Shown in pieces: positions 231 to 16,295 of a DNA stretch of 16,295 nt (within the stretch, counting starts at the first letter, position 1; every line of letters begins with the position of its first letter). The position numbers were made by a program, and so were the translations under genes. A model generated the notes under the pieces. It worked only from the letters and a program-made list of their open reading frames with translations, was not told the DNA's origin and made no database searches. This DNA is from Candidatus Moraniibacteriota bacterium (GTDB lineage: Bacteria; Patescibacteriota; Minisyncoccia; Moranbacterales; GCA-2747515). The stretch lies in the NCBI GenBank assembly GCA_027016355.1, contig JALWAF010000009.1, positions 1 through 16,295 of the forward strand, given 5' to 3'.

Positions 231-3200
231 ATGAAAAAAATATCTTTTGCACTAGCATTTGTGCTATTATTGTGTACAACTAGTAATGCTTTTGCCCAAA
301 ACAACTCAGATATTGTAGATTCATCAGTGAAAGTGATTGAAGGCAATAGTGATGACATTGTTGCTAATGTTGATTTTGAAAAAGTAACTATAGAACAAGA
401 TAAAAAAGATAATAGAAAGATGACTATTTCCTTTGATATAGTCAACCATCATACAAAGGTATTATCCAATCTTGTTAATTCAGTGCAAGTATTAAAAGGA
501 CAAAGAGTTATTTATGAGGAAGTTATGCCAGGAACAGCAACAATCGCTCCACAGAGTTCTGTAAAAGAAATTATTCATTTTACTGTTCCAAAATTTATAG
601 GAGGAGATGTATCTTTGCGTATTATGGGAGCAGATCGTACAGGTTTAGTGCTAGAAGATTACATTGTTGATAATATTAATTTACCTCAACAAGATACAAA
701 GAGTATTACAATACATGATTGTTCATTGTTTGTAAATGCTAAAGAACAGTTTTTACTTTCCGATGGAGTAGATATTAGTCCTCAAGAAAAATTATCCATT
801 GAGTGTGATGTAGATAATGACTCTGATCAAGATATTACATATACTCCTGAAATAAATATATATGCAAAATCAATTTACAGCGGAAAAGTAGAAAAAACAT
901 GGAAAGGAAAAGAAGAAATATTTACCAAACAATCGACAAAAACAGTCAATTTTGAAATGCCACTTCCACAATCACCGGGGTATTACGATGCAAGGCTTAA
1001 TTTTTTAAATGATAATGATAAAGTAGCAACAGGAGTTGTGGCCCATTTTGTTTTACAAGGTCAATCAGCTTCTTTGAGCTTTGTATCATTTGATAAACAA
1101 CAATACAAGAAAGGAGATACAATTACCGCCAAAGTACTCATAGCCGGTTCAGCAGATTCTTTTCCGGGCGCTCGCAATCAAAAATCTCTACAACCAAAAA
1201 GTATAACATTAAAAGGCTCTATTGAATCTGAAGGTAAAAAATGTGCAGAGGATATTGAAAAAGATATTTCCGGAAAAGACGGCACATATAATGTCATAAT
1301 TGAGAAAAAAGCAACTAGAGATTGTAAAAAACCGGTAGCAAGTATTGCACTTTATGATGAAAATGGTCAATTACTTGATAGCAATGAATACAAACTTCAT
1401 ACGGAAACTAAAAATGTTGTAAAACAATCTTCATCACAAAGCAATAATAGTAAAACATTGTTCAAAACAATAATGCTTATTTTAGCTCTCTTGTTCATAA
1501 TATCATTAGCAACATGGTTAATTTATTTAACAAAAAAACATCACAGTGGCAGTATTGGACTATTTGTTTTGATAATGACTCTTGGTATTTTAATAGGCGC
1601 TCATAGTGTACATGCAGGTGTTACTGTGCAGTGTGGTCCAAGTAGTTTGAATGATCATGGATATTGTTATTATGATGTCAGTCCAACCGGAGATTGTTCT
1701 ACAATGCGTGGCGAAGCACGAATTAGTTGGAATGTGTGTCAAAATCACAAAAGAAGTCTTGAGATTCAGTGGAGACCAACTGTTAATGATCAGTTTGAGT
1801 CTTTGGTAAAGGGTTCTGAAATTTATGTCAGACAATGTAGTAAAAAAACTGATAATTTTGGGAATATTTGCTATACAAAACGCGCTGGAAAATGTAAAAA
1901 TAAATATTCTCCTTTAGGACATTGTCCAAGTGATGCATATTTAGCACACGATCTCTGGGGAACTCCAATCCCACAAAAAGTACAAGGAGGTAATTGTATT
2001 AAGGATAGTGGTTGTGATAAGACATTTTATGGATTTGCCTGTCCAGAATGTAATAATATAAAAGATTATAACAATAAATTTTATGAAATAAGTAATGGTA
2101 TGCCAGGGTGGGGTTTAAAAAGTGCTCAGGTAACAAAAGTTGTTGGCTCAGGTAATCATGTAGCAAGATTTCGTTTTATGTTTCGAGATTTAAAGGATCA
2201 TAAAGATGATACGGATGTTTATTACAATGCACCATATACGGTTCCACAATGTCCACCTGTTAATGGGCAATGTTCTTCTGCAAGTCCATATACATATAAT
2301 GCAAGTCAAACAACATGGCCTGCAGCAGCAAATAATCCAACATATTTTTGCGCAAGTGGTACACCAACAATTACACCAACACAAAGTAATTTTCCAAACT
2401 ACGGTCAAACAACATCATGGGATTGCATAGGCAAAAATGGAGGCACATCAACACAAGGTGGTGCATGTAAGGCAACACGTCAGATGCCAACAGCACATTG
2501 CATTGCAGGAGAAAGGCCTGAAACAAACACAAAACCAACAACAAACCTCTGTCCACCAAATCACACAGCAAGTGATCCACAAATTGTGAGTAATCAGTGG
2601 CAGTGGACCTGCACTCACAATGTAACAGGTGCAACTCCACAATTTGCAACATGTACAGCACCAATTCCAGGCGCAAAATGTGGAACCGCACATACAGATG
2701 ATCCCAATAACACAACAAACACAAAACCAACAATAAATTTATGTGCAAAACAAGGACAAGGAGTATGTAGTTGGCCAGGTAATACATTGCCTGATGTCTC
2801 ACTTCAAAATGATGGTTGGTGGCATTGGCAGTGCACACATGATATGCAAGCATATCCACAAACAGTTGATTGTCATGCTCCAACATGCCTAGCAAATATG
2901 CCAATAAACTACACAACCCCAGTAATTATCTCAGACGATATGAAAACAATGATTTCTCTTAATTGTCCAGGAACTAATTCGAGTAATAAATTATGTTGCA
3001 AAATTCACAATACTGCACAAGGTGCTGACCATGAGATTACAATGTGTACAGGAGACCCTGCAAAGGAAGTAAAAATTATAGAAGGAGCAGAAAACAAATT
3101 TTATGCAAAATGTTGGTTTAGTGGCAATGGCAATGGAAATGGCAATGGCAATGGAAATGGAAATGGAGGTGATAATTCTGTAGATAAATCTTTCACAGTA

Positions 3201-3347
3201 CAAACAGCATGTATAGAATCACAATGTACAGCAAACGGCACATGTGCCAAAGCACCAAAAGCAGCAAGTTCACGCTCACAATGTAAAAGTACATGCAATT
3301 CAAATGCAGATTGTACAAGTGGACGTATAATTGAAACAAGACCATAA
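231..3347 (+). CDS. Large Cys-rich cell-surface protein with an internal transmembrane hairpin
   Basis: This 1038-aa protein was not recognised as a named family. Residues 1-22 are a signal peptide (cleavage likely after AFA). Residues 23-405 look like beta-rich, Ig-like exported domains. Two hydrophobic segments follow (about 411-434 and 440-462), joined by a short KKHH loop; the second ends in VHAG like a second signal-peptidase site. The C-terminal half is Cys-rich, with three related repeats (about 674-746, 755-812, 817-886) of the form C...LC...W.W.C...C.AP, as in many Patescibacteria surface proteins. A (GN)7GG linker spans 965-980, and a final small Cys domain ends in SGRIIETRP. If both helices insert, both halves face outward. 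It is the second of two tandem paralogues. Adhesion or envelope structure is a guess from architecture only. The ATG at 231 is chosen because it begins the signal peptide. Confidence 0.85.
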   Translation: MKKISFALAFVLLLCTTSNAFAQNNSDIVDSSVKVIEGNSDDIVANVDFEKVTIEQDKKDNRKMTISFDIVNHHTKVLSNLVNSVQVLKGQRVIYEEVMPGTATIAPQSSVKEIIHFTVPKFIGGDVSLRIMGADRTGLVLEDYIVDNINLPQQDTKSITIHDCSLFVNAKEQFLLSDGVDISPQEKLSIECDVDNDSDQDITYTPEINIYAKSIYSGKVEKTWKGKEEIFTKQSTKTVNFEMPLPQSPGYYDARLNFLNDNDKVATGVVAHFVLQGQSASLSFVSFDKQQYKKGDTITAKVLIAGSADSFPGARNQKSLQPKSITLKGSIESEGKKCAEDIEKDISGKDGTYNVIIEKKATRDCKKPVASIALYDENGQLLDSNEYKLHTETKNVVKQSSSQSNNSKTLFKTIMLILALLFIISLATWLIYLTKKHHSGSIGLFVLIMTLGILIGAHSVHAGVTVQCGPSSLNDHGYCYYDVSPTGDCSTMRGEARISWNVCQNHKRSLEIQWRPTVNDQFESLVKGSEIYVRQCSKKTDNFGNICYTKRAGKCKNKYSPLGHCPSDAYLAHDLWGTPIPQKVQGGNCIKDSGCDKTFYGFACPECNNIKDYNNKFYEISNGMPGWGLKSAQVTKVVGSGNHVARFRFMFRDLKDHKDDTDVYYNAPYTVPQCPPVNGQCSSASPYTYNASQTTWPAAANNPTYFCASGTPTITPTQSNFPNYGQTTSWDCIGKNGGTSTQGGACKATRQMPTAHCIAGERPETNTKPTTNLCPPNHTASDPQIVSNQWQWTCTHNVTGATPQFATCTAPIPGAKCGTAHTDDPNNTTNTKPTINLCAKQGQGVCSWPGNTLPDVSLQNDGWWHWQCTHDMQAYPQTVDCHAPTCLANMPINYTTPVIISDDMKTMISLNCPGTNSSNKLCCKIHNTAQGADHEITMCTGDPAKEVKIIEGAENKFYAKCWFSGNGNGNGNGNGNGNGGDNSVDKSFTVQTACIESQCTANGTCAKAPKAASSRSQCKSTCNSNADCTSGRIIETRP
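3123..3170 (+). repeat. Hexanucleotide GGNAAT repeat encoding (Gly-Asn)7-Gly-Gly
   Basis: Seven in-frame units of GGC/GGA-AAT are followed by GGAGGT, giving a flexible Gly-Asn linker between the Cys-rich repeats and the C-terminal Cys domain. The unit is six bases, so gain or loss of units by slippage would keep the frame and only change linker length. Confidence 0.9.
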
Positions 3348-5651: not shown

Positions 5652-6045
5652 TACTGCTCCGAGAAAGAAAAAAACTTTCGTAGACAGAGCGAAATAAGCG
5701 AGATAAATTTGGGGAGGTAACTCGTTTTTTTATTTGTTTGAAATTGATTTAAAAAATTGTGCTGAAACATGGTGAAAAAAATGTTTACTTGTTTCCGCAG
5801 AATGAGAACTTTCACAATTGCATATAATTTTGATTGATTACATAGTATTTGCGGAAATACATATGTGGTTAAATCAGGAGAAAGCAACAATAGGTTAAGC
5901 AATTTCATTGATTTTGGTATAGCGCAAGTTATATCAGCATCAAATGAAAGAACAAACACTCATTCTGATTAAGTAGTATATGAGTTTTCAATTAAGTTTT
6001 TCTTAATTGTCAATTCTTTATAGACTTATATCGAAATAAAAGAAC
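5652..6045 (+). other. Leader of the 23S rRNA precursor; no gene seen
   Basis: About 390 bases with no convincing ORF, tRNA or 16S sequence. It holds several possible hairpins. GAAAG/CTTTC lies near 5660-5680. AAGCGAG pairs with CTCGTTT followed by T's near 5694-5731 and could be an attenuator. TTTCCGCA (5792-5799) pairs with TGCGGAAA (5850-5857). The left arm of the 23S processing stem lies at 6000-6025. The 102-codon minus-strand frame here has no support. Confidence 0.6.
6000..6025 (+). other. Left arm of the 23S rRNA processing stem
   Basis: TTCTTAATTGTCAA (6000-6013) is the exact complement of TTGACAATTAAGAA at 10404-10417, and ATAGAC (6020-6025) of GTCTAT at 10391-10396. The arms flank the mature 23S sequence on both sides and so form the long stem typically cut by RNase III. 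Confidence 0.85.
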
Positions 6046-6539
6046 AAGGTTACGAAGAGCGTATAGTGGATGCCTTGGTTGATACAAGCGATGAAGGACG
6101 TAGTTGGGTGCGATAAGCTTCGGGGAGTTACCAAACAAGCGGTGATCCGGAGATTTCCGAATGGGGAAACCCACTCACTTTATGTGAGTACTCATAACTA
6201 AATATATAGGTTATTGAGAGTGCACTCTGGGAATTGAAACATCTTAGTACCAGAAGGAAAAGAAATTAATTAAAGATTCCGTAAGTAGTGGCGAGCGAAC
6301 GCGGATGAGTCTAAACCATTTTCTTTATGGAGATGGGGTTGCGAGGTAAACGGACTAGCTTAGAGCTGGGCCGATTAGTTTTTCTTAGTAGAACACTCTG
6401 GAAAGTGTGACCATAGAAGGTAATAGTCCTGTAAACGAAAAGAAAAAATAATAGGTGAGTTTATTCTCAAGTAGGGCGGGACCGGTGAAATCCTGTCTGA
6501 ATCTGGGAGCACTAACTTCCAAGACTAAATATTGTATCA

Positions 6540-6581
<42 letters not shown>

Positions 6582-6636
6582 TCCCGTAGAGGGAGGTGAA
6601 ATAGAACTGAAACTATATGCTAACAAAGAGTTGGAG

Positions 6637-6944
6637 CCCCTCACCCAAATTATTTTAATTTATGTACAAAATATATATGCATTATGTTTATGTATTACAA
6701 GCAATTGATGATGTAGAAAATTTTTACGTTGGCTGCACGAGTGATTTAAAAAGTCGTTTTAAATCTCATAATGATGGTCAAAATAAATCTACAAAAGCAC
6801 ATAAATGGAAGATTGTTTATTACGAGGCTTGGATGACATTAAGTGCTGCACGCACAAGAGAATATCGTCTGAAGCATTGTGGTAAAACAAAATATCAATT
6901 GATTAAAAGAATTAAAGAAAGTTTAGAATAATTTGGGTGAGGGG
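6637..6944 (+). mobile_element. ORF-bearing intervening sequence in 23S helix 25
   Basis: An 18-bp perfect inverted repeat (6637-6654, CCCCTCACCC..., with 6927-6944) encloses the GIY-YIG ORF almost exactly. Only 7 bases separate the left arm from the ATG at 6662, and the stop codon lies inside the right arm. Flanking sequence (GTTGGAGC and TGACAGCG) matches E. coli helix 25 (GGGAGC...TGACTGCG). No group I or II core fits in the few non-coding bases. This is therefore more like an RNase III-excised intervening sequence, as known in H25 of Salmonella, than a splicing intron. The excision mechanism is inference. Confidence 0.8.
6662..6931 (+). CDS. GIY-YIG family endonuclease inside 23S rRNA
   Basis: A single-domain GIY-YIG nuclease of 89 aa (84 if it starts at Met 6, ATG 6677, which would give the common MxYVYVL beginning). 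The motif elements are YVYVL (8-12) and YVG (22-24), the catalytic Arg in LKSR at 32, HN at 36-37, YYE at 53-55 and the metal-binding Glu in RTREYRLK at 67. In length and layout it resembles the YhbQ/UPF0213-type small GIY-YIG proteins. Here the gene sits in the loop of a hairpin in helix 25 of 23S, and it likely cuts DNA to spread the insert; that role is inference. No Shine-Dalgarno site is near the start, and translation would need the excised or precursor rRNA. Confidence 0.87.
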   Translation: MYKIYMHYVYVLQAIDDVENFYVGCTSDLKSRFKSHNDGQNKSTKAHKWKIVYYEAWMTLSAARTREYRLKHCGKTKYQLIKRIKESLE

Positions 6945-7566
6945 TGACAGCGTGCTTTTTGCAGAACGACCCAGCGAGTTAGTTTTGTATGGCTTGCATA
7001 AGTTACTATGTAACAGATGCGCAGTGAAAGCGAGCTGTAACAGGCGAATATGTCATACGAACTAGACCCGAAACCGAGCGAGCTACGCATGAGCAGGGTG
7101 AACACAATGTAAAAATTGTGGGAGGCCCGCACCCACTGATCGTGCAACATCAGGGGATGACTTGTGTGTAGAGGAGAAATTCCAATCGAGCTCGGCAATA
7201 GCTGGTTCTCTCCGAAATAGCTTTAGGGCTAGCGTTGTTTAATTAGTCATGGGAGGTAGAGCTACTGAATGAGTTTCCGCCGCAAGGTAGGTCACTCAAC
7301 CAAACTCCGAATGCTCATGACCGTATTACAGCAGTTAGAACTGCGGGGCTAAGCTCGTAGTTCAAAAGGGAAACAGCCCAGACCACAATCTAAGGTCCCT
7401 AAATTCATACTCAGTGGGAAAGGAAGTGAGACTTCATAGACACCTAGGAGGTTGGCTTAGAAGCAGCCATCCTTTAAAGAAAGCGTAACAGCTCACTAGT
7501 TTAGAGGTCTTGCGCCGAAAATATAACGGGGCTTAAGTATGATACCGAAGATGTGGATATCGTGCA

Positions 7567-7701
7567 CGGCACTTAAATTTTAAATTGTAAATTTAAAATT
7601 TTAATTGAATGACAAAATTATTTAATGTTTTAAACATTAAAAATTTAAGCATTAAAAATTCATTTGAAATTAAAAATTGAAAATTTGAAATTAGAGTGCT
7701 T
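7567..7701 (+). other. ORF-less AT-rich intervening sequence in 23S helix 45
   Basis: The natural H45 stem is seen as ATCGTGCA (7559-7566) with TGCACGAT (7702-7709), extended by GCACT (7569-7573) with AGTGC (7695-7699). Where E. coli has a short loop, about 120 bases of almost pure A/T follow, with nested palindromes such as AAATTTTAAATT-GTA-AATTTAAAATTT and variants of CATTAAAAATT and AAATTTGAAATT. No ORF is present. H45 is the second classical site of RNase III-cut intervening sequences. Confidence 0.8.
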
Positions 7702-8702
7702 TGCACGATGTGGTAGGAGAGCGTTCCATTCACACCGAAGCCGGACGGGCGACCGCCGGTGGAGTGTATGGAAGTGAGAATGCTGGGATGAGTAACCGCA
7801 ATGCGCGTGAGATCCGCGCACACCGAAAATCTAAGGTTTCCTGGGCAATGCCAATCATCCCAGGGTTAGTCGGGCCTAAGGCGAGGCCGAAAGGCGTAGT
7901 CGATGGACAGCAGGTTAATATTCCTGCACCGTTTATGTATGCTGACTGGAGTGACGTATTTTAGTAGCTACTGCATGTTATTGGATTCATGTGGATATAC
8001 TAGGGACGTATAGTAGGAAAATCCGCTATACACTAAGTCCGAGGTATATACAGACGTTCTACTTTGGTAGAATTAATAGTAGTGAGCAGAGTACCTGGAA
8101 AAGCTTCTAAGCTTCAATATATAAACGCCCGTACCGCAAACCGACACAGGTAGATAGGGCGAGTAGCCCAAGGTGAATGAGTGAGACCTGGTTAAGGAAC
8201 TCGGCAAAAAAGCTAGACGTACGTTCGCAAGATGTCTTCCCGACTTTTTGTTAAGTCGGGCGCAGCTAAAGTGCCCTTCCGACTGTTTACCAAAAACACA
8301 ACTCTCTGCTAACCCGTAAGGGGATGTATAGGGGGTGACACCTGACCAGTGCTGGAACATTAACGGGAGCGGTTCACGCCAATCCCCGAAGTGCCAGTGA
8401 ACGTCGGCGATAACTATAATCGTCCTAAGGTAGCGAAATTCCTTGTCGGCTAATTACCGACCTGCATGAAAGGTGTAACGAGATGGGAACTGTCTCAACC
8501 AGGTGCTCGGTGAAATTGCAATAACGGTAAAGATGCCGTTTACCTACAGCTAGACGAAAAGACCCCGTGGAGCTTTACTATAGCTTGGCATTGAATTAGA
8601 GTTTTAGTTGCCGAGAATAGGTGGGAGACTTTGAGACTGTCCTTTTGGGGACAGTGGAGTCGCCAGTGGAATACCACCCTGCTGAAGTTTTGATTCTAAC
8701 CT

Positions 8703-8898
8703 TGCACCGTTAGGTGTATTTAATAGAAGAGGAGAATGCATATTAGGCGAATAGTAGAGTTACACATATTAAAATTATTGTGTATTTTTTGTGTTCCTCT
8801 GTAATGTGGAGGTTAAAATAACAATATTAATGTAACTAAACAATTCGTCTGATGATAATTTTCTTCTACAAACCATATTAAATATAGCTACCGGTGCA
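8703..8898 (+). other. Long structured insertion in 23S domain V (near helix 79)
   Basis: E. coli has about 25 bases here between TTCTAAC and GGACAGTG; this gene has about 200. Nested complementary arms support one long helix: 8703-8709/8892-8898 (7 bp), 8717-8725/8876-8884 (9 bp), 8726-8730/8862-8866, 8745-8752/8843-8850 (one G-T pair) and 8758-8764/8831-8837 (7 bp), with a small hairpin CCTC/GGAGG at the tip. No ORF and no group I core were seen. It could be an expansion segment kept in the ribosome or another excised intervening sequence. Confidence 0.75.
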
Positions 8899-8913
8899 GG
8901 AACAGTGCCTGGT

Positions 8914-8945
<32 letters not shown>

Positions 8946-9106
8946 ATGTAACGGAGGCGTTTACAAAGGTTGGTTAGGTCCGGATGGACATCGGGCCGAT
9001 AGTGCAAACGCATAAACCAGCTTTACTGAAAGACATACAAGTCGACCAGTTACGAAAGTAGAAGTTAGTGAACCGACCGAACGCTAGTAGTAGCGCGGAA
9101 GATCAT

Positions 9107-9137
<31 letters not shown>

Positions 9138-9210
9138 AATTCCTCCCAAGAGTTCACATCGACGGAGGAGTTTGGCACCTCGATGTCGGCTCATCTCATC
9201 CTGGGGCTGG

Positions 9211-9247
<37 letters not shown>

Positions 9248-9273
9248 AGGTACGCGAGCTGGGTTCAAACCGT

Positions 9274-10014
9274 CAACTTGAATTAAAAACGGCGGCCTAT
9301 GCGAGTAATTGCATATGGAAAAAACTGACTCATATCGGAGAAATCCTTGCACGATAACCTGTAGTGTGATAGGATAATTCCGAGGGAAGTCGTAAATTTT
9401 GTCTATGAATAATGTTTTCGCAGCTTATATTGCTGGTTTTTTAGATGCTGATGGTAGTATTTATGTTCAATTAAAGAAAAATACATCGTATAAATATGAT
9501 TTTCAAATTTATGCACAAGTTGTATTTTGTCAATCTTCCAAACATAAAAATTTCCTTGTGAAATTATGTAAGGAAATTGGATATGGATATGTAAGGGAGC
9601 GTAATGATAACATTTCTGAATATATCATTGGAGATTGTGAAGGAATGATGTGTGTTATTGATATCACACTTAAGTATCTAAAATTAAAAAAAGAACAAGC
9701 AATATTAATGCAAAAAATTCTTAATCAAAAACAGAATATTGATTCTGCAGATGATTTTGTGAGACTTGCAAAAAGTATTGATCGTTTTCGTGAATTGAAT
9801 TATTCAAAAAAGCGAATTAATACAGCTGATGTAGTAAAAAAACATTTAATAGAAAAGAATTTATTGACCCCGTAGAGACTTGAATATTTATTATTCAGAT
9901 TTTGATTGATACGCATTGCGTAAATTATAATCAAAATAACACGTCGGTCTCCCACAATAGTGTGGGATGGTGGTATAGTCCATGCCATTGGTAACAATGG
10001 AATTTGAAATAATG
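9274..10014 (+). mobile_element. Group I intron in 23S at E. coli position 2593
   Basis: The 741-base insert interrupts TCAAACCGT^CGTGAGAC. The upstream exon ends in T and the insert ends in G, as group I splicing needs, and the site equals the I-CreI intron site L2593. The 3' part has core-like features. GACT (9877-9880) with AGTC in TATAGTCC (9977-9980) is a plausible P7. Hairpins are 9899-9907/9929-9937, CCCACA-ATAG-TGTGGG (9951-9966), and CCATTG-GTAA-CAATGG (9985-10000) with a GNRA loop. The 5' part has a P2-like TATGC/GCATA hairpin and GCGG able to pair with the exon end. A LAGLIDADG ORF lies between the two halves. The subgroup was not determined. Confidence 0.85.
9405..9875 (+). CDS. 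I-CreI-like LAGLIDADG homing endonuclease (intron-encoded)
   Basis: A 156-aa single-motif LAGLIDADG protein, close to the length of I-CreI (163 aa). The motif YIAGFLDADGS spans 8-18, with Asp 16 at the place of I-CreI Asp20. Gln 43 matches Gln47 and Lys 95 (LKLKKEQ) matches Lys98, while His replaces Arg51. GYGYVRERN...SEYI (59-74) parallels GVGYVRDRG...SDYI of I-CreI. A single motif implies a homodimer that cuts the intron-less 23S allele at the insertion site, which is the I-CreI target itself. The start is ATG 9405 rather than the in-frame TTG at 9399. The stop codon lies just before the presumed P7 strand of the intron, so the coding end and the ribozyme core abut. Catalytic residues look intact, so it is probably active. 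Confidence 0.92.
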   Translation: MNNVFAAYIAGFLDADGSIYVQLKKNTSYKYDFQIYAQVVFCQSSKHKNFLVKLCKEIGYGYVRERNDNISEYIIGDCEGMMCVIDITLKYLKLKKEQAILMQKILNQKQNIDSADDFVRLAKSIDRFRELNYSKKRINTADVVKKHLIEKNLLTP

Positions 10015-12058: not shown

Positions 12059-12748
12059 ATGAGTAAAAAAGTTATTTTAAGTTTGGCTATAATTGTGTTG
12101 GTGTTACCAATTATCGTAATTGCAGCCACAGATGGTACGTATAATATTACAGTTGATAATATTGGGTTTGCTGGAGGGGAAGCAAGTGTTGATGGAACAT
12201 ATAATTTATCTGATACTGTGGGTACGCCACTTGTAGGACTTGGTACTAGCACGAATTATAAAACTCAAGATGGATTTTGGTATATGGTCAATAATACTAT
12301 TGCACTTGTCTTGGATTCAAATACTAAAGATTTAGGTACAATAACACCAGGCTCACCAAATACAGCAACAACAACTGCAACAGTGACAACTGACGCATGG
12401 GGAGGTTATGAATTATTAATCAGTGAAAATCACAGTTTAACTCATACCGTTGATGGTACTACCACAATTGCAGATTATGCAGGAACAATTGCTACACCAA
12501 CAGCTTGGAGTGGTACGGGACTTGGATTTACTGTAACAAATGGTTCTGGTGTAGCAGCAAAATGGGGCACATCACCAAATAATAATTATGCCGGTATTCC
12601 AACGACGGATACAGTTTTTCACGATAAGGGCGGATACACAAGTGGTGGAGATGATACAGTAGTAGAATATAAAGCAGATGTGCCAAGTACACAAAAGTCT
12701 GGAACATATACAAATACAGTTACATATACAGCAATTTCAAAGCTGTAG
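12059..12748 (+). CDS. Secreted WxL-like surface protein A (Y-for-W variant, no cysteines)
   Basis: A 229-aa protein with a signal peptide (1-22 or 23, ...IVIAA). Residues about 24-76 form a separate module ending in TSTNYKTQDGFWYM, a pattern (G..TS.NYK...GFW) seen in many bacterial surface proteins. Residues about 80-229 share a beta-rich domain with the genes at 12983 and 14650: LGTITPGSP, TDAWGGYELLI (113-121), WSGTGLGF (150-157), NNNYAGIP, and the end DVPSTQKSGTYTNTVTYTA. The layout resembles the Gram-positive WxL domain, in which GWxL and a terminal TWTL anchor proteins to peptidoglycan, but W is Y in both motifs. This is the only one of the three without cysteine. WxL homology is judged by eye, and wall association is inference. 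Confidence 0.7.
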   Translation: MSKKVILSLAIIVLVLPIIVIAATDGTYNITVDNIGFAGGEASVDGTYNLSDTVGTPLVGLGTSTNYKTQDGFWYMVNNTIALVLDSNTKDLGTITPGSPNTATTTATVTTDAWGGYELLISENHSLTHTVDGTTTIADYAGTIATPTAWSGTGLGFTVTNGSGVAAKWGTSPNNNYAGIPTTDTVFHDKGGYTSGGDDTVVEYKADVPSTQKSGTYTNTVTYTAISKL

Positions 12749-12982
12749 GTGTAGCTACGTTTTTGAAAATTAAAAAAGAGGTTTATGAAACTTTAAATTA
12801 TAGTTTTTGTGAATCTTGTAGATATTTTTTGAATACGTAAACAAACTGTGGATAACTTTTGTTGGTTATATATTAAATTATAATGTATTATATAAACGAG
12901 GTATTTTTGATTAGGTCGATAACAAAAAATCAAAAATAAAAAAGTTGGTTTAATTAAACGAATTTACAAATAAAACAAAAAT
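12749..12982 (+). other. AT-rich intergenic region with one DnaA-box match
   Basis: No gene was found. TGTGGATAA at 12847-12855 is the exact complement of the DnaA box TTATCCACA. A -10-like TATAAT is at 12879-12884. A weak, short hairpin follows the upstream stop codon (AGCT...AGCT, then ACGTTTTT). Confidence 0.5.
12879..12884 (+). promoter_or_regulatory. -10 box (TATAAT) for WxL-like gene B
   Basis: A consensus hexamer about 98 bases before the ATG at 12983. The -35 region (TTGTTG, 14-base spacer) is poor, so another start site is possible. Confidence 0.4.
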
Positions 12983-13678
12983 ATGAAATTAAATAAAATA
13001 ATTGCAGGTACAAGTGCTCTTGCATTATCGTTGTCAATGACAAGTGTGGCACTTGCTGCAGATGCAGGACCAGAGGTTATAGATTTTACAGTTAATGTGC
13101 AAGATACTATTTCTATGACATGTCATGAACATGGTCAACTTGATGCTGATAAGAGTATTGATTTTGGTACAGTAACAGCCGGTACCCCAGTATTTGGCTC
13201 ATCAGACTGTGATGTTACAACAAATGATGAAAATGGTTATTATTTAAAAATGGTAAATGATAACGGTGCAGGTGAAACAATGACAGACCCCAATGGTGTA
13301 ACATCTGATATTACAGACACATTAGCAGCATTTGATTGGGGAAATGGTGATGGAGCTGGAGGTGTTCCAACATTAGTTGCGTGGGGAGCTAATACAGGAG
13401 TCGGATTTACAATTGCTAGTGCTCCAACCAAAGAATCACAATTTGGTTCGTCAACAACATGTGTTGACACAATAAATCATAATTTTGGAGGAGTTCCTGC
13501 CACTGCAGAGCCAATTATGAGACATCAAAATTATTCAGCAACTGAGACGACAACCACAACTTGTTATATCTTGGATGTAACAGCAACTCAAGAATCAGGT
13601 GTTTATACAGGAAGTGTTACATATACGGTAACTAGCGATGCTTCAAGCGTTACGGACATAGATGCTATAAACTCTTAA
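12983..13678 (+). CDS. Secreted WxL-like surface protein B (four conserved cysteines)
   Basis: A 231-aa protein with a signal peptide (1-26, ...VALAADA). The mature part follows the same plan as genes A and C: SIDFGTVTAGTP (58-69), CDVTTNDENGYYLKM (76-90), WGANTGVGF (134-142), FGGVPATAEPIM (168-179) and the end ATQESGVYTGSVTYTV (201-216). The WxL positions are YYL (86-88) and TYTV (213-216). Cysteines 47, 76, 160 and 194 match 44, 68, 146 and 179 of protein C, which suggests two disulfides outside the cell. A short acidic tail (SSVTDIDAINS) follows the last motif, unlike in A and C. The next gene downstream is a damaged partner-type gene. Function is inferred as a wall-bound or partner-bound surface protein; it could also be a pilus- or S-layer-like subunit. 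Confidence 0.72.
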   Translation: MKLNKIIAGTSALALSLSMTSVALAADAGPEVIDFTVNVQDTISMTCHEHGQLDADKSIDFGTVTAGTPVFGSSDCDVTTNDENGYYLKMVNDNGAGETMTDPNGVTSDITDTLAAFDWGNGDGAGGVPTLVAWGANTGVGFTIASAPTKESQFGSSTTCVDTINHNFGGVPATAEPIMRHQNYSATETTTTTCYILDVTATQESGVYTGSVTYTVTSDASSVTDIDAINS

Positions 13679-13691
13679 GTTGAATTATTTT

Positions 13692-13730
13692 ATTCTTCTT
13701 AACATTTTTGTGTGTTGAGAAGAATATAAA
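13692..13730 (+). terminator. Terminator-like hairpin after WxL-like gene B
   Basis: A 13-bp stem (13692-13704 with 13713-13725, one G-T pair) with an 8-base loop begins 14 bases after the stop codon. Only AT-rich sequence, not a clean T run, follows, so efficiency is uncertain. Confidence 0.65.
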
Positions 13731-13778
13731 TGATTTAATAATAGATGAAAATAATATTAATTAATAAATAAAGCTTTG

Positions 13779-13784
13779 TATAAT
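13779..13784 (+). promoter_or_regulatory. TATAAT at the 5' break of the truncated gene
   Basis: A consensus -10 hexamer just before coding homology begins. No -35 box is evident. It may be a relic or chance in AT-rich DNA. Confidence 0.3.
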
Positions 13785-13788
13785 AATC

Positions 13789-14541
13789 AGTGTAGAGGAT
13801 TTTTATGTTGGAGAAGATGGATCTGAACCATTGTTTTTTGTGCCAGATGATAAACATCCAAGAAAAAATAGAGATGTTATTAATTGGATAACATTGCCAG
13901 AAAATTTTGTTTTAGCGCCCGGTGAGAGTAAAAATATTGATTTTGTAGTGAGCGTGCCAAGTGGTCAGCCAACAAATGGATATTATGGAAGTATATTTTT
14001 TGAGGCAAGTGATTTGGAAAAAAATGATAGTATACCAAAGTCTAATACAATGGGTATAAATTATAGAATAGGGTCACTTGTTATAATGTCAATTCAAGGT
14101 GACGAGCCTATGAAAATTGATGGAGAATTACAAAAATTTTATACAACACAAAAAGTTTTTTGGACTACACCCGCAAAAATGAAAGTAGAAACGATTAATA
14201 CAGGTAACATCCATTATCCCCTATTTGGAAAAATTGAAATCAATAAGTTTGGTAAAAAATTTCATGTCATAGAATTAAAACCTCAGTTAGTATATCCTGA
14301 TATAGTTAAAAATTATGAAGAAGATATGGAGTTTGGTATATGGGATTTTGGCAGGTACAATGCACATTTATCAATGTGGTCGCAAGATAAAACTGTAAAA
14401 TTTGAACAAGATGTGTCATTTTGGGTCATACCATGGAAAGGATTGCTAATAATTATTGGTAGTGTAGTGGGATTAATTATTATTGGTATATTGTTTAAAA
14501 AGTACGTTCATATTGGTGCAAAACCTATAAGAAGAGATTAA
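13789..14541 (+). pseudogene. 5'-truncated WxL-interacting-protein-like (DUF916-type) gene
   Basis: From 13789 the frame aligns with residues 74 onward of the complete copy at 15416: SVEDFYV vs QVEDFFV, FFVPDDKHP vs FFVPDKNHP, LAPGESK vs LAPGETK, QPTNGYYGSIFF identical, MKIDGE, INKFGKKF and FWVIP. The signal peptide and first 70 or so residues are missing. Upstream in frame there is a stop at 13765-13767 and no ATG. The only in-frame start-like codon is TTG 13831, which falls inside the domain. The C-terminal part is intact, with a membrane helix GLLIIIGSVVGLIIIGILF and a basic tail. It is either a recent pseudogene or a gene making a shortened product. A TATAAT at 13779-13784 lies at the break. 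ATG 13805 is in another frame and gives only 28 codons. Confidence 0.72.
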
Positions 14542-14590
14542 AGAATAAAATAAATATATGTAATTTTTATTGTAAAATAAAATTTTGTGA

Positions 14591-14596
14591 TATAAT
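14591..14596 (+). promoter_or_regulatory. -10 box (TATAAT) for WxL-like gene C
   Basis: TATAAT lies 53 bases before the ATG at 14650. TTGTAA at 14570-14575 with a 15-base spacer is a weak -35 candidate. Confidence 0.45.
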
Positions 14597-14649
14597 AATA
14601 TATACTTACTTGAAAATAAAAATAATATAAATTAATTAAAGACAAAAAT

Positions 14650-15267
14650 ATGAAAAAAATTATAGTAGGAATGAGTGTAATTATATTTTCACTGTCAACA
14701 ACTAGTATAACATTTGCTGCAGTGGATACGGACGGGGTTAATCTTTCAGCAACAATCGGTGAAAGCATGACGCTTGCTTGTGGTGCTGATGTAGATATTG
14801 ATGGAGGTGGTAGCGTAACAGCAGGTACTCCAGAATCGAATTCTACAACATGTACTGTTACAACAAATGATAATGATGGATATAATTTGCAAATTGCAGA
14901 TGATAATGCTGGAAGTGATGCATTGGTCAATGGATCAAATACAATTACTGATAAAACAGCTTGGGATCCAACTGCAGCAGCTGGAAATGGTAATGCAGTG
15001 GCTTGGTCAGGTACAGGGCTAGGGTTTAGTGTATATGCTTCAACAGCAACAAAAAATACTACGTGGTGGGGAACTGGATCAGCGTGTCATGATGCAAATA
15101 ATAAGTATGCAGGATTACCAGATAGTGCTACAAATATCATGGAGCACACCGCATACTCAAGTAGTAGCACCACAACAAGTATTTGTTATCGAGTAGATGT
15201 GCCTGCAACACAGGCTTCAGGTGAATATTCTGGTTCAGTTACATACACTGCAACAGGTCGTCCATAA
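14650..15267 (+). CDS. Secreted WxL-like surface protein C (four conserved cysteines)
   Basis: A 205-aa protein with a signal peptide (1-24, cleavage after TFAA). Mature segments are SVTAGTPE (55-62), CTVTTNDNDGYNLQI (68-82), WSGTGLGFSV (119-128), NKYAGLPDSATNIM (151-164) and the end VPATQASGEYSGSVTYTATGRP, where the domain and the protein finish together as in WxL proteins. YNL (78-80) and TYTA (198-201) take the place of the two WxL motifs. Cysteines 44, 68, 146 and 179 match those of protein B, its closest relative here. The full partner-type gene follows 148 bases later, repeating the order seen with B and the truncated copy. Envelope location is well supported; wall binding is inferred. 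No Shine-Dalgarno sequence precedes the ATG (GACAAAAAT). Confidence 0.73.
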   Translation: MKKIIVGMSVIIFSLSTTSITFAAVDTDGVNLSATIGESMTLACGADVDIDGGGSVTAGTPESNSTTCTVTTNDNDGYNLQIADDNAGSDALVNGSNTITDKTAWDPTAAAGNGNAVAWSGTGLGFSVYASTATKNTTWWGTGSACHDANNKYAGLPDSATNIMEHTAYSSSSTTTSICYRVDVPATQASGEYSGSVTYTATGRP

Positions 15268-15346
15268 TCTAGACACGTTTTTATTCTTTGAAATTTTTTA
15301 GATAAAATTTTAAATAAACATTACAAAAGAAAATGAGATATTACTT

Positions 15347-15374
15347 TTGAATACATGTATGTGATGAGTATAAT
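15347..15374 (+). promoter_or_regulatory. Promoter of the intact partner gene
   Basis: TTGAAT (15347-15352), a 16-base spacer and TATAAT (15369-15374) lie 41 bases before the ATG at 15416. Confidence 0.6.
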
Positions 15375-15415
15375 ATATTCTAGTTGTACATGTTTTTCTT
15401 TTTTAAATTTTGAAA

Positions 15416-16295
15416 ATGCAACAAAATAAGTATAAAAAAATAAAACAGGGTATTCAAGGATTTTTAGTATTATTAGTCGTATTTTCCTGGAGTAGTGTGC
15501 AAGCAGAATCAACTCCAGAGACTGGTGTACAGATTTCTCCAATTCGTTTTGATTTACAAATGAAAGAAGGAGAACAAAAAAATGAAGAAATTGTTGTGCA
15601 TAATTTTTCTAATGTTCCACATGATGTAGAAGTGCAGGTAGAAGATTTTTTTGTATCAAATGATAGCCAGCAGGCAAATTTTTTTGTACCAGATAAAAAT
15701 CATCCACTCAAAGCTTATGATGTAATTGATTGGATTGATGTGCCAGAGGATTTTACACTTGCACCAGGTGAAACAAAGAGGCTTACAATTGTAGTTAATG
15801 TCCCTAAAGATCAACCGACCAATGGTTATTATGGAAGTATTTTTTTTAAAACAAAAGCTAATAATGTAGCAGAAAATGACAATATTGATGGTGTAAAATT
15901 AGATGTTAATTATCGTGTTGGTGTATTGATGACAATTGCAGTGCAAGGTGATGAGAAAATGAAAATTGATGGGAGTGTTGAGGATTTTGGAGTGTCAAAA
16001 AAAATTTTTTGGGAAAGTCCAATAATAATTTTTGCAAAATTAAAAAGCGATGGCAATGTACATTATAAAGCTGGTGGTAAAGTGGAAATAAGGAAATTTG
16101 GTAAGCGATTTGCAGTAATAAAGGTGGATGATAGGATAATGTATCCAGGTAGAGAGCGGACTTTTCGAGAACAAGTGATGTTTGGCATGTGGGATTATGG
16201 AATATATATCGCTAAATTGGCTATGCAATCAGAGGATGGAAGCATTCCTTTTAAAAATAAAGAAATAAACTTTTTTGTCATTCCATCGAAACCGA
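15416..16295 (+). CDS. WxL-interacting-protein-like (DUF916-type) envelope protein, 3' end outside the window
   Basis: The frame is open from ATG 15416 to the window edge (293 codons seen). A signal peptide spans 1-30 (basic QNKYKKIK, hydrophobic FLVLLVVFSW, then VQA). The first beta domain (about 36-130) has SPIRFDLQMKEGEQKNEEI, typical of the N-terminal strand pair of DUF916/WxLIP proteins. A second follows, with LAPGETKRLTIVVNVP, DQPTNGYYGSIFF (132-144) and MKIDG (182-186). FFVIPSKP at the edge corresponds to the point just before the membrane helix of the truncated copy at 13789, so one helix and a basic tail probably follow. In Gram-positive bacteria such proteins are membrane-anchored partners that bind WxL proteins and peptidoglycan. 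The nearby WxL-like genes fit that role. The family match is by eye. Confidence 0.75.
   Translation, partial: MQQNKYKKIKQGIQGFLVLLVVFSWSSVQAESTPETGVQISPIRFDLQMKEGEQKNEEIVVHNFSNVPHDVEVQVEDFFVSNDSQQANFFVPDKNHPLKAYDVIDWIDVPEDFTLAPGETKRLTIVVNVPKDQPTNGYYGSIFFKTKANNVAENDNIDGVKLDVNYRVGVLMTIAVQGDEKMKIDGSVEDFGVSKKIFWESPIIIFAKLKSDGNVHYKAGGKVEIRKFGKRFAVIKVDDRIMYPGRERTFREQVMFGMWDYGIYIAKLAMQSEDGSIPFKNKEINFFVIPSKP

Follow-up and report, generated by a model that had tools for sequence, protein, structure and literature searches.

The question raised by the right-hand end of this contig is what kind of surface system is encoded by five genes that lie from position 12059 onward and all read in one direction. 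The window, that is the whole stretch of DNA analyzed, is an entire contig (C9, JALWAF010000009.1, 16,295 nucleotides) from a draft genome of 1.16 Mb in 189 contigs of a Candidatus Moraniibacteriota bacterium. Three of the genes (A, B, and C) encode small secreted proteins and two resemble genes for WxL-interacting proteins (WxLIP' and WxLIP). An initial annotation regarded the cluster as an alternating set of WxL-like and WxLIP-like genes in which Trp had been exchanged for Tyr; the order is A-B-WxLIP'-C-WxLIP, an imperfect alternation. The explanation that we favor, with a probability of roughly 60%, is that the cluster encodes a divergent, usher-less surface fiber of the Pam type built by donor-strand exchange, with the WxLIP-like protein as a membrane-anchored chaperone and the WxL proteins of Gram-positive bacteria as probable distant relatives.

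Results

A, B, and C have signal-peptide-like N-termini and one common C-terminal domain, and the GYxL and TYT(A/V) motifs that had been pointed out there are indeed read in all three (Table 1). B and C are 42% identical across their alignment. With C as query, 150 database proteins were found at E ≤ 0.001, C itself counted, and 51 of the 120 homologues listed were aligned with B and C into a profile of 53 sequences (A1). This profile finds A, which is outside its rows, at 2e-33; the scores of B (6e-61) and C (1e-93) are high by construction, both being rows of the profile. In a search of the genome to which the window belongs, the pilin profile matches A, B, and C only, and the WxLIP profile (A2, made from 39 of 46 WxLIP homologues and the two window frames) matches only the two WxLIP-like genes of the window.

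A Pam pilus of the candidate phyla radiation (CPR) is already known to curators through the NCBIfam models for PamR (NF058578), PamT (NF058579), and the pilin (NF058581). A matches PamT at 2.8e-11 (43.3 bits, cut-off 240), and the Pam pilin domain is matched by A at 2.3e-3 (18 bits), B at 6.5e-6 (26.3 bits), and C at 3.8e-3 (17.3 bits), the cut-off being 55. Matches to NF058581 at E up to 0.1 occur in 43 of the 53 family members, and a profile built on NF058581 matches across the phylum (30 loci, one per genome, out of 73 genomes with a match) compares with the close family at a probability of 97.9%. Judged from these comparisons A, B, and C are distant CPR Pam pilins, and the link is firm. 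The name Pam-type is used because homology was found at the level of profiles, though the NF058581 cut-off was not reached.

The cluster is like the Pam pilus in its homologous pilin domain, its PamT-like first gene, and the WxLIP-like gene beside the pilins, and unlike it in scores far under the cut-offs, small single-domain pilins, and the lack of a PamR over cut-off in any of 128 genomes of the order, the window's own genome reaching 19.5 bits against a cut-off of 300. PamT over cut-off is likewise found in none of the 128; a PamT-like match is present in 41 of them, 37 of which also have a WxLIP match, and the window's own genome has a second PamT-like N-terminal module on contig C42. For comparison, a canonical cluster (L131, genome G194) scores 295 bits for PamT, 183 for the Pam pilin, and 356 for PamR. 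A gene adjoining a pilin matches the WxLIP profile in six of six clusters, L131 and five others, one of these from a genome below cut-off; an NCBIfam scan of three such genes from two of these clusters gave no meaningful name. The same arrangement holds in the window, and is a regularity found here rather than a curated one.

Pairing of pilins with WxLIP extends over the phylum, as the annotation had expected of related genomes. Among 286 Patescibacteria genomes, a Pam pilin match was found in 73 (15 over cut-off) and a WxLIP match in 119; both occur together in 70, with 30 expected, which leaves only three of the 73 pilin genomes lacking WxLIP. Each of the 15 genomes above the pilin cut-off has its matched stretches 16–201 bp apart, counting one pair per genome chosen by eye among the best matches listed; for G158 the pilin of the pair is an end fragment of 46 codons on the WxLIP contig, with the full pilin on another contig. 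Within the order the close pilin family is present in 17 of the 128 genomes and WxLIP in 14 of these 17 (exceptions G002, G005, and G046). Relatives compared included G001, G002, and G004 of the same genus as the window and G006 of the same family. In G002, which has no WxLIP match, three proteins with lengths of 1218, 335, and 1111 residues end in the pilin domain (L071:4943-8599, L072:6948-7955, and L073:5477-8812). Thermotoga maritima, a control genome, has a WxLIP_PGBD match and no WxL model match, i.e. a WxLIP domain without a recognized WxL partner.

Of the two genes that had been assigned to the WxLIP/DUF916 type, the assignment stood for both by similarity, with the reservation that the first is 5′-truncated and the second cut by the end of the contig. 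The last gene's product matches WxLIP_PGBD (PF06030, formerly DUF916) at 1e-9 (38.9 bits, cut-off 27.3) and has no match to the HBD family PF11797; we label it WxLIP-like because its second domain was recognized by fold only. It reaches 293 residues at the contig end, compared with 324 in the 96%-identical homologue P0121. The structural model of P0121 has two immunoglobulin-like (Ig-like) domains and ends in a membrane helix at 291–314; the corresponding helix lies beyond the contig end of the window. The best match of the P0121 model is the solved Enterococcus WxLIP (9i1y/9i25), followed by fimbrial chaperones, in keeping with the initial annotation of this gene. The earlier frame, WxLIP', is 46% identical to the last gene over residues 70–292 of the latter and 53% identical to an open reading frame (ORF) of G001, with similarity beginning at residue 73 of P0121 and residue 108 of the G001 ORF. 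It has no Pfam PF06030 match. As read, the frame is without a signal peptide and therefore should not be exported, and it also lacks the first ~70 residues, among them position 44, a basic residue of the first strand. The missing N-terminal part was sought in the window, where its equivalent in the last gene was the only match. The G001 counterpart (L065) is complete and lies downstream of a pilin gene. WxLIP' is probably a pseudogene, and C with the last gene is the pilin–chaperone pair of the window that has no visible damage within the contig.

The AlphaFold2 model of C has a mean confidence (predicted local distance difference test, pLDDT) of 89.9 and no strand ahead of residue 40. In its predicted fold the protein is similar to donor-strand pilins, and hydrophobic residues alternate along a free strand at the N-terminus: in the 53 sequences the hydrophobic fraction is 0.92, 0.98, 0.77, and 1.00 at positions 30, 32, 34, and 36 and 0, 0, and 0.02 at positions 31, 33, and 35. 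This alternation, together with the unpaired strand in the monomer model, supports a possible role of the N-terminal strand in completing the fold of a neighboring subunit. A sequence search of the PDB with the pilin profile found nothing at E up to 10. Weak similarities of the family to two other domains recur: the N-terminal domain of GH123, seen in 18/53 members at Pfam E ≤ 1 and in the top Foldseek row for C, and DUF4402 (17/53 members, best 3e-4).

Table 1. Features of the putative fiber cluster, with positions in the window
Feature	Position	Strand	Basis
Gene A, secreted protein of 229 aa; PamT-like N-terminal module and pilin-like C-terminal domain, ~residues 75–228; candidate tip/capping subunit	12059..12748	+	NCBIfam PamT NF058579, Pam pilin domain, A1 profile
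A motif 1, GYEL	12404..12415	+	sequence reading
A motif 2, TYTA	12722..12733	+	sequence reading
Gene B, secreted pilin-like protein of 231 aa; short C-terminal tail beyond last strand	12983..13678	+	NF058581, alignment A1
B motif 1, GYYL	13235..13246	+	sequence reading
B motif 2, TYTV	13619..13630	+	sequence reading
WxLIP', 5′-truncated WxLIP-like gene, probable pseudogene	13777..14541	+	similarity to last gene and G001 ORF
Gene C, secreted pilin-like protein of 205 aa	14650..15267	+	NF058581, homologues, AlphaFold2 model
C N-terminal extension, residues 28–38, candidate donor strand; hydrophobics at 30/32/34/36	14731..14763	+	alternation in 53 sequences; model
C motif 1, GYNL	14878..14889	+	sequence reading
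C motif 2, TYTA, within last strand (197–203 in model)	15241..15252	+	sequence reading, model
WxLIP-like gene (DUF916/PGBD and second Ig-like domain), cut by contig end; candidate membrane-anchored chaperone	15416..16295	+	PF06030; model of homologue P0121

The WxL half of the initial annotation fared differently from the WxLIP half, for which both the Pfam and the solved-fold match stand. None of A, B, and C is matched by the WxL family model PF13731 at E up to 10, PF13731 is not among the best 25 of 28 families listed for the 53 family members, and it is matched in none of 17 family genomes. The motifs were surveyed in 90 domains: the 53 sequences of the family alignment, 7 of the A type, and 30 phylum-wide Pam pilin domains. 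Motif 1 has Y in 85, F in 3, S in 1, A in 1, and W in 0; motif 2 has Y in 73, F in 9, L in 4, I in 2, A in 1, and W in 1. The pilin family as a whole is characterized by Tyr, and an earlier Trp is nowhere evident. Accordingly the motifs could not be confirmed as altered WxL motifs, and neither a consistent change from Trp to Tyr nor a binding surface arising from it was borne out, no change being visible in the lineage. On sequence grounds A, B, and C should not be filed under WxL, and homology on this side does not go beyond the distant.

Profiles were also compared directly. A profile of 15 Gram-positive WxL proteins (A3) was made from 11 of 14 WxL hits together with four proteins encoded in three plasmid records; among the three omitted hits, one is identical to one of the four plasmid-record proteins. 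Comparison with full-length sequences was discarded, as it was the signal peptides that aligned. Trimmed pilin and WxL profiles scored 18.8–21.5, against shuffle maxima of 17.6 (40 shuffles) and 15.4 and 15.7 (100 each). The control, the WxLIP PGBD domain, scored 24.8, 25.9, and 18.2 with three pilin profiles (WxL scoring 19.1 with the third) and 28.2 at full length; the direct pilin–WxL probability was 3.9% (WxLIP control 12%), and for the window's own family 3% (control 14%). The direct test decides nothing, because WxL was outscored by the control for two of these pilin profiles.

An indirect route was given by the Patescibacteria themselves. WxL-type proteins matching PF13731 are present in 10 of the 286 genomes (G393, G141, G207, G215, G169, G151, G282, G344, G187, and G201; loci L159–L169), five over cut-off. 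WxLIP is matched in every one of the 10, with about 4 expected, and of the 11 stretches surveyed around these loci six contain a WxLIP-like gene (27 bp away in L169, 109 bp in L164). Most are about 200 residues long, others 307 and 475, and motif 1 reads GW, AW, EW, GF, or GY. G141 and G393 have Pam pilins as well as WxL-type proteins, and the L166 protein is above the WxL cut-off (25.8 bits) and has the motifs GYTL and TYTTTLTF. Four paralogues recruited through the WxL profile were part of an earlier form of the comparison, and one of them, L159:5599-6225, lacks a Pfam WxL match; the comparison was repeated with the 11 PF13731 places only. As a profile these 11 match Gram-positive WxL at 98% over 139 columns and all pilins at 62% with a score of 33.9 (control 2%; WxLIP domain control 19.3; best of 100 column shuffles 15.7; reversed 14.7), falling to 33% for the window's own family. 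The confident core of the pilin match is ~30 C-terminal columns with motif 2 inside, and the placement of motif 1 varies between alignments. Remote kinship of Pam pilins and WxL proteins is likely from these alignments.

The profile of 15 WxL proteins finds PDB chain 9i25_A at 0.0012, and two Enterococcus mundtii WxL proteins used as PDB queries found no WxL chain. In 9i25 a WxLIP is bound to a WxL chain, and PMC10599100 reports binding of WxL by WxLIP and an AlphaFold2 prediction in which a WxLIP strand is inserted into WxL. This predicted contact is of the same kind as that between chaperone and pilin.

Discussion

In the mechanism that we propose, B and C would be pilin subunits exported by the Sec pathway, as read from their N-termini, each an incomplete Ig-like sandwich whose groove would be filled by the free N-terminal strand of a neighbor (donor-strand exchange). 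A would be a PamT-like tip or capping subunit in which an extra N-terminal module replaces the free strand. The WxLIP-like protein, whose two Ig-like domains would be carried by a membrane helix at the C-terminus, would serve as a chaperone on the outer side of the membrane, gripping a newly exported subunit by strand insertion and handing it over to a fiber that would grow at the membrane without an usher; one of the window's two chaperone genes would be broken. The data contributing to this are the shared domain, the kinship with Pam pilins, the pairing with WxLIP by genome and by neighborhood, the predicted folds, the strand alternation, and the absence of an usher match; from them we infer polymerization, chaperone action, the order of assembly, the tip role of A, and surface adhesion. 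Binding of a host cell by the fiber is conjecture based on lifestyle.

Two known types of fiber are relevant for comparison. Chaperone-usher pili (Csu, type 1, P, and CFA/I) are similar in predicted pilin and chaperone folds and in the alternating N-terminal strand. They differ in that the usher PF00577 is matched in none of the 128 genomes of the order, the window's own included (an E. coli control was positive), that the WxLIP homologue has a C-terminal membrane helix, and that the pilin profile has no sequence match in the PDB. The TasA/TapA fibers of Bacillus have a likeness in fold, TasA and TLP-1 being among the fold matches of the pilin, with no sequence match found; PMC9674648 describes donor-strand assembly in a Gram-positive bacterium.

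The comparison extends to the Gram-positive WxL/WxLIP clusters of the csc type. WxLIP is shared by sequence and fold, small subunit genes adjoin it, large proteins bear the C-terminal domain (for the pilin domain, in the sister genome G002), and remote kinship of the subunits is probable; the window departs from these clusters in lacking a WxL model match, in having Tyr rather than Trp, and in having a PamT-like subunit. It is possible that WxL proteins and Pam pilins are branches of a single superfamily of donor-strand subunits with a WxLIP partner, in which case the window belongs to the Pam branch and its WxL look reflects deep homology. Such a common origin, which is compatible with the fiber explanation, is now a serious reading because the Patescibacterial WxL proteins align both to WxL and to the pilins, above the controls, and we regard it as having not quite an even chance. 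It is also consistent with the WxLIP match in every WxL-bearing genome and near six of the 11 loci, with the Tyr motifs of L166, and with the WxLIP–WxL complex of 9i25 and the strand insertion predicted in PMC10599100. Set against this are the restriction of confident alignment to the ~30 C-terminal columns with motif 1 placed differently between alignments, the lower probability for the window's family and, in direct comparison with Gram-positive WxL, a probability of 3% where the WxLIP control has 14%. The WxL chain 9i25_A is moreover not among the 50 fold matches listed for the pilin model, which excludes nothing.

That A, B, and C are WxL domains proper, binding the wall or an S-layer after a change of Trp to Tyr and displayed with WxLIP, appears improbable. 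The WxLIP partner is real, the alignment to the 15 WxL proteins is collinear, with GY on GW and VTYTA on LTWEL (score 21.5, the best of 100 column shuffles reaching 15.4), and the large proteins of sister genomes that end in the domain recall large WxL proteins. PF13731, however, has no match in A, B, and C, is not among the 25 of 28 families listed for the 53 members, and is unmatched in the 17 family genomes, the probability for that same alignment is 3.9% and its profile scores higher with the WxLIP domain control, and Trp is absent from all 90 domains at motif 1 and present in one at motif 2. A donor-strand fiber explains more than wall binding does. The domain might instead be a C-terminal anchor or display module of secreted proteins that forms no fiber, as the G002 proteins in a genome without WxLIP and the 3′ end fragments of the domain at contig ends of G001 and G002 would suggest; we give this little credence, since B and C each consist of one domain with a free strand of the donor type and WxLIP accompanies the pilins in 14 of the 17 pilin-bearing genomes of the order and 70 of the 73 of the phylum.

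Returning to the fiber, a wider proposal can be made that WxLIP is the monoderm counterpart of PapD/FimC, and that usher-less donor-strand fibers are built from Tyr-type (Pam) and Trp-type (WxL) subunits in Patescibacteria and in Gram-positive WxL clusters, with subunits kept at the membrane by the C-terminal helix; the Moranbacterial branch would then combine small Tyr-type pilins with a PamT-like tip and no PamR. This has gained weight because of the Patescibacterial WxL-type proteins, and it is offered tentatively, as more probably wrong than right in its full breadth. If true, Gram-positive WxL clusters would gain a testable subunit and chaperone mechanism, replacing the label of wall binding. 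The Patescibacteria that have been cultivated live on other microbes, with host binding described as largely unknown and type IV pili discussed as candidates in PMC12206443; a widespread second fiber type with its own chaperone, judging from the phylum-wide counts of pilin and WxLIP matches, would be a further candidate for host binding. The present analysis adds a divergent branch in Moranbacteria, WxLIP as a nearly constant companion of Pam pilins, and the Trp-type WxL subunits in the same phylum, bridging Pam pilins and WxL. No paper on the CPR Pam pilus was among those listed from the literature searched, with preprints and most subscription journals outside its coverage, so a source for the models may exist elsewhere; the searches found nothing joining Patescibacteria and "donor strand", and for Patescibacteria and WxL only one unrelated paper.

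Additional features of the contig and related genomes

Near-identical DNA encoding the final ~25 residues of the domain found in the pilins occurs at contig ends in G001 (the starts of L066 and L068 and the end of L069) and in G002 (the ends of L075 and L076). The 3′ end of the domain seems to be a repeat that breaks assemblies, and may be common to several large surface proteins and prone to recombination.

At 231-3347 the window encodes a secreted protein of 1038 residues with a Cys-rich C-terminal part and a weak WxLIP_HBD match (E 0.03). A paralogue of 1887 residues on contig C42 (L137) is 65% identical to it over 875 residues, and CTxGRIIETRP terminates both. Between the 23S and 5S rRNA genes lies an ORF for a LAGLIDADG homing endonuclease (9399-9875), in a region with no match to an Rfam intron family at E up to 0.5. 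The 23S rRNA gene itself (6043-9353) is 3311 bases long compared with 2925 in the model and contains an ORF resembling a GIY-YIG endonuclease (6662-6931, 1.3e-11), consistent with an intron or insertion.

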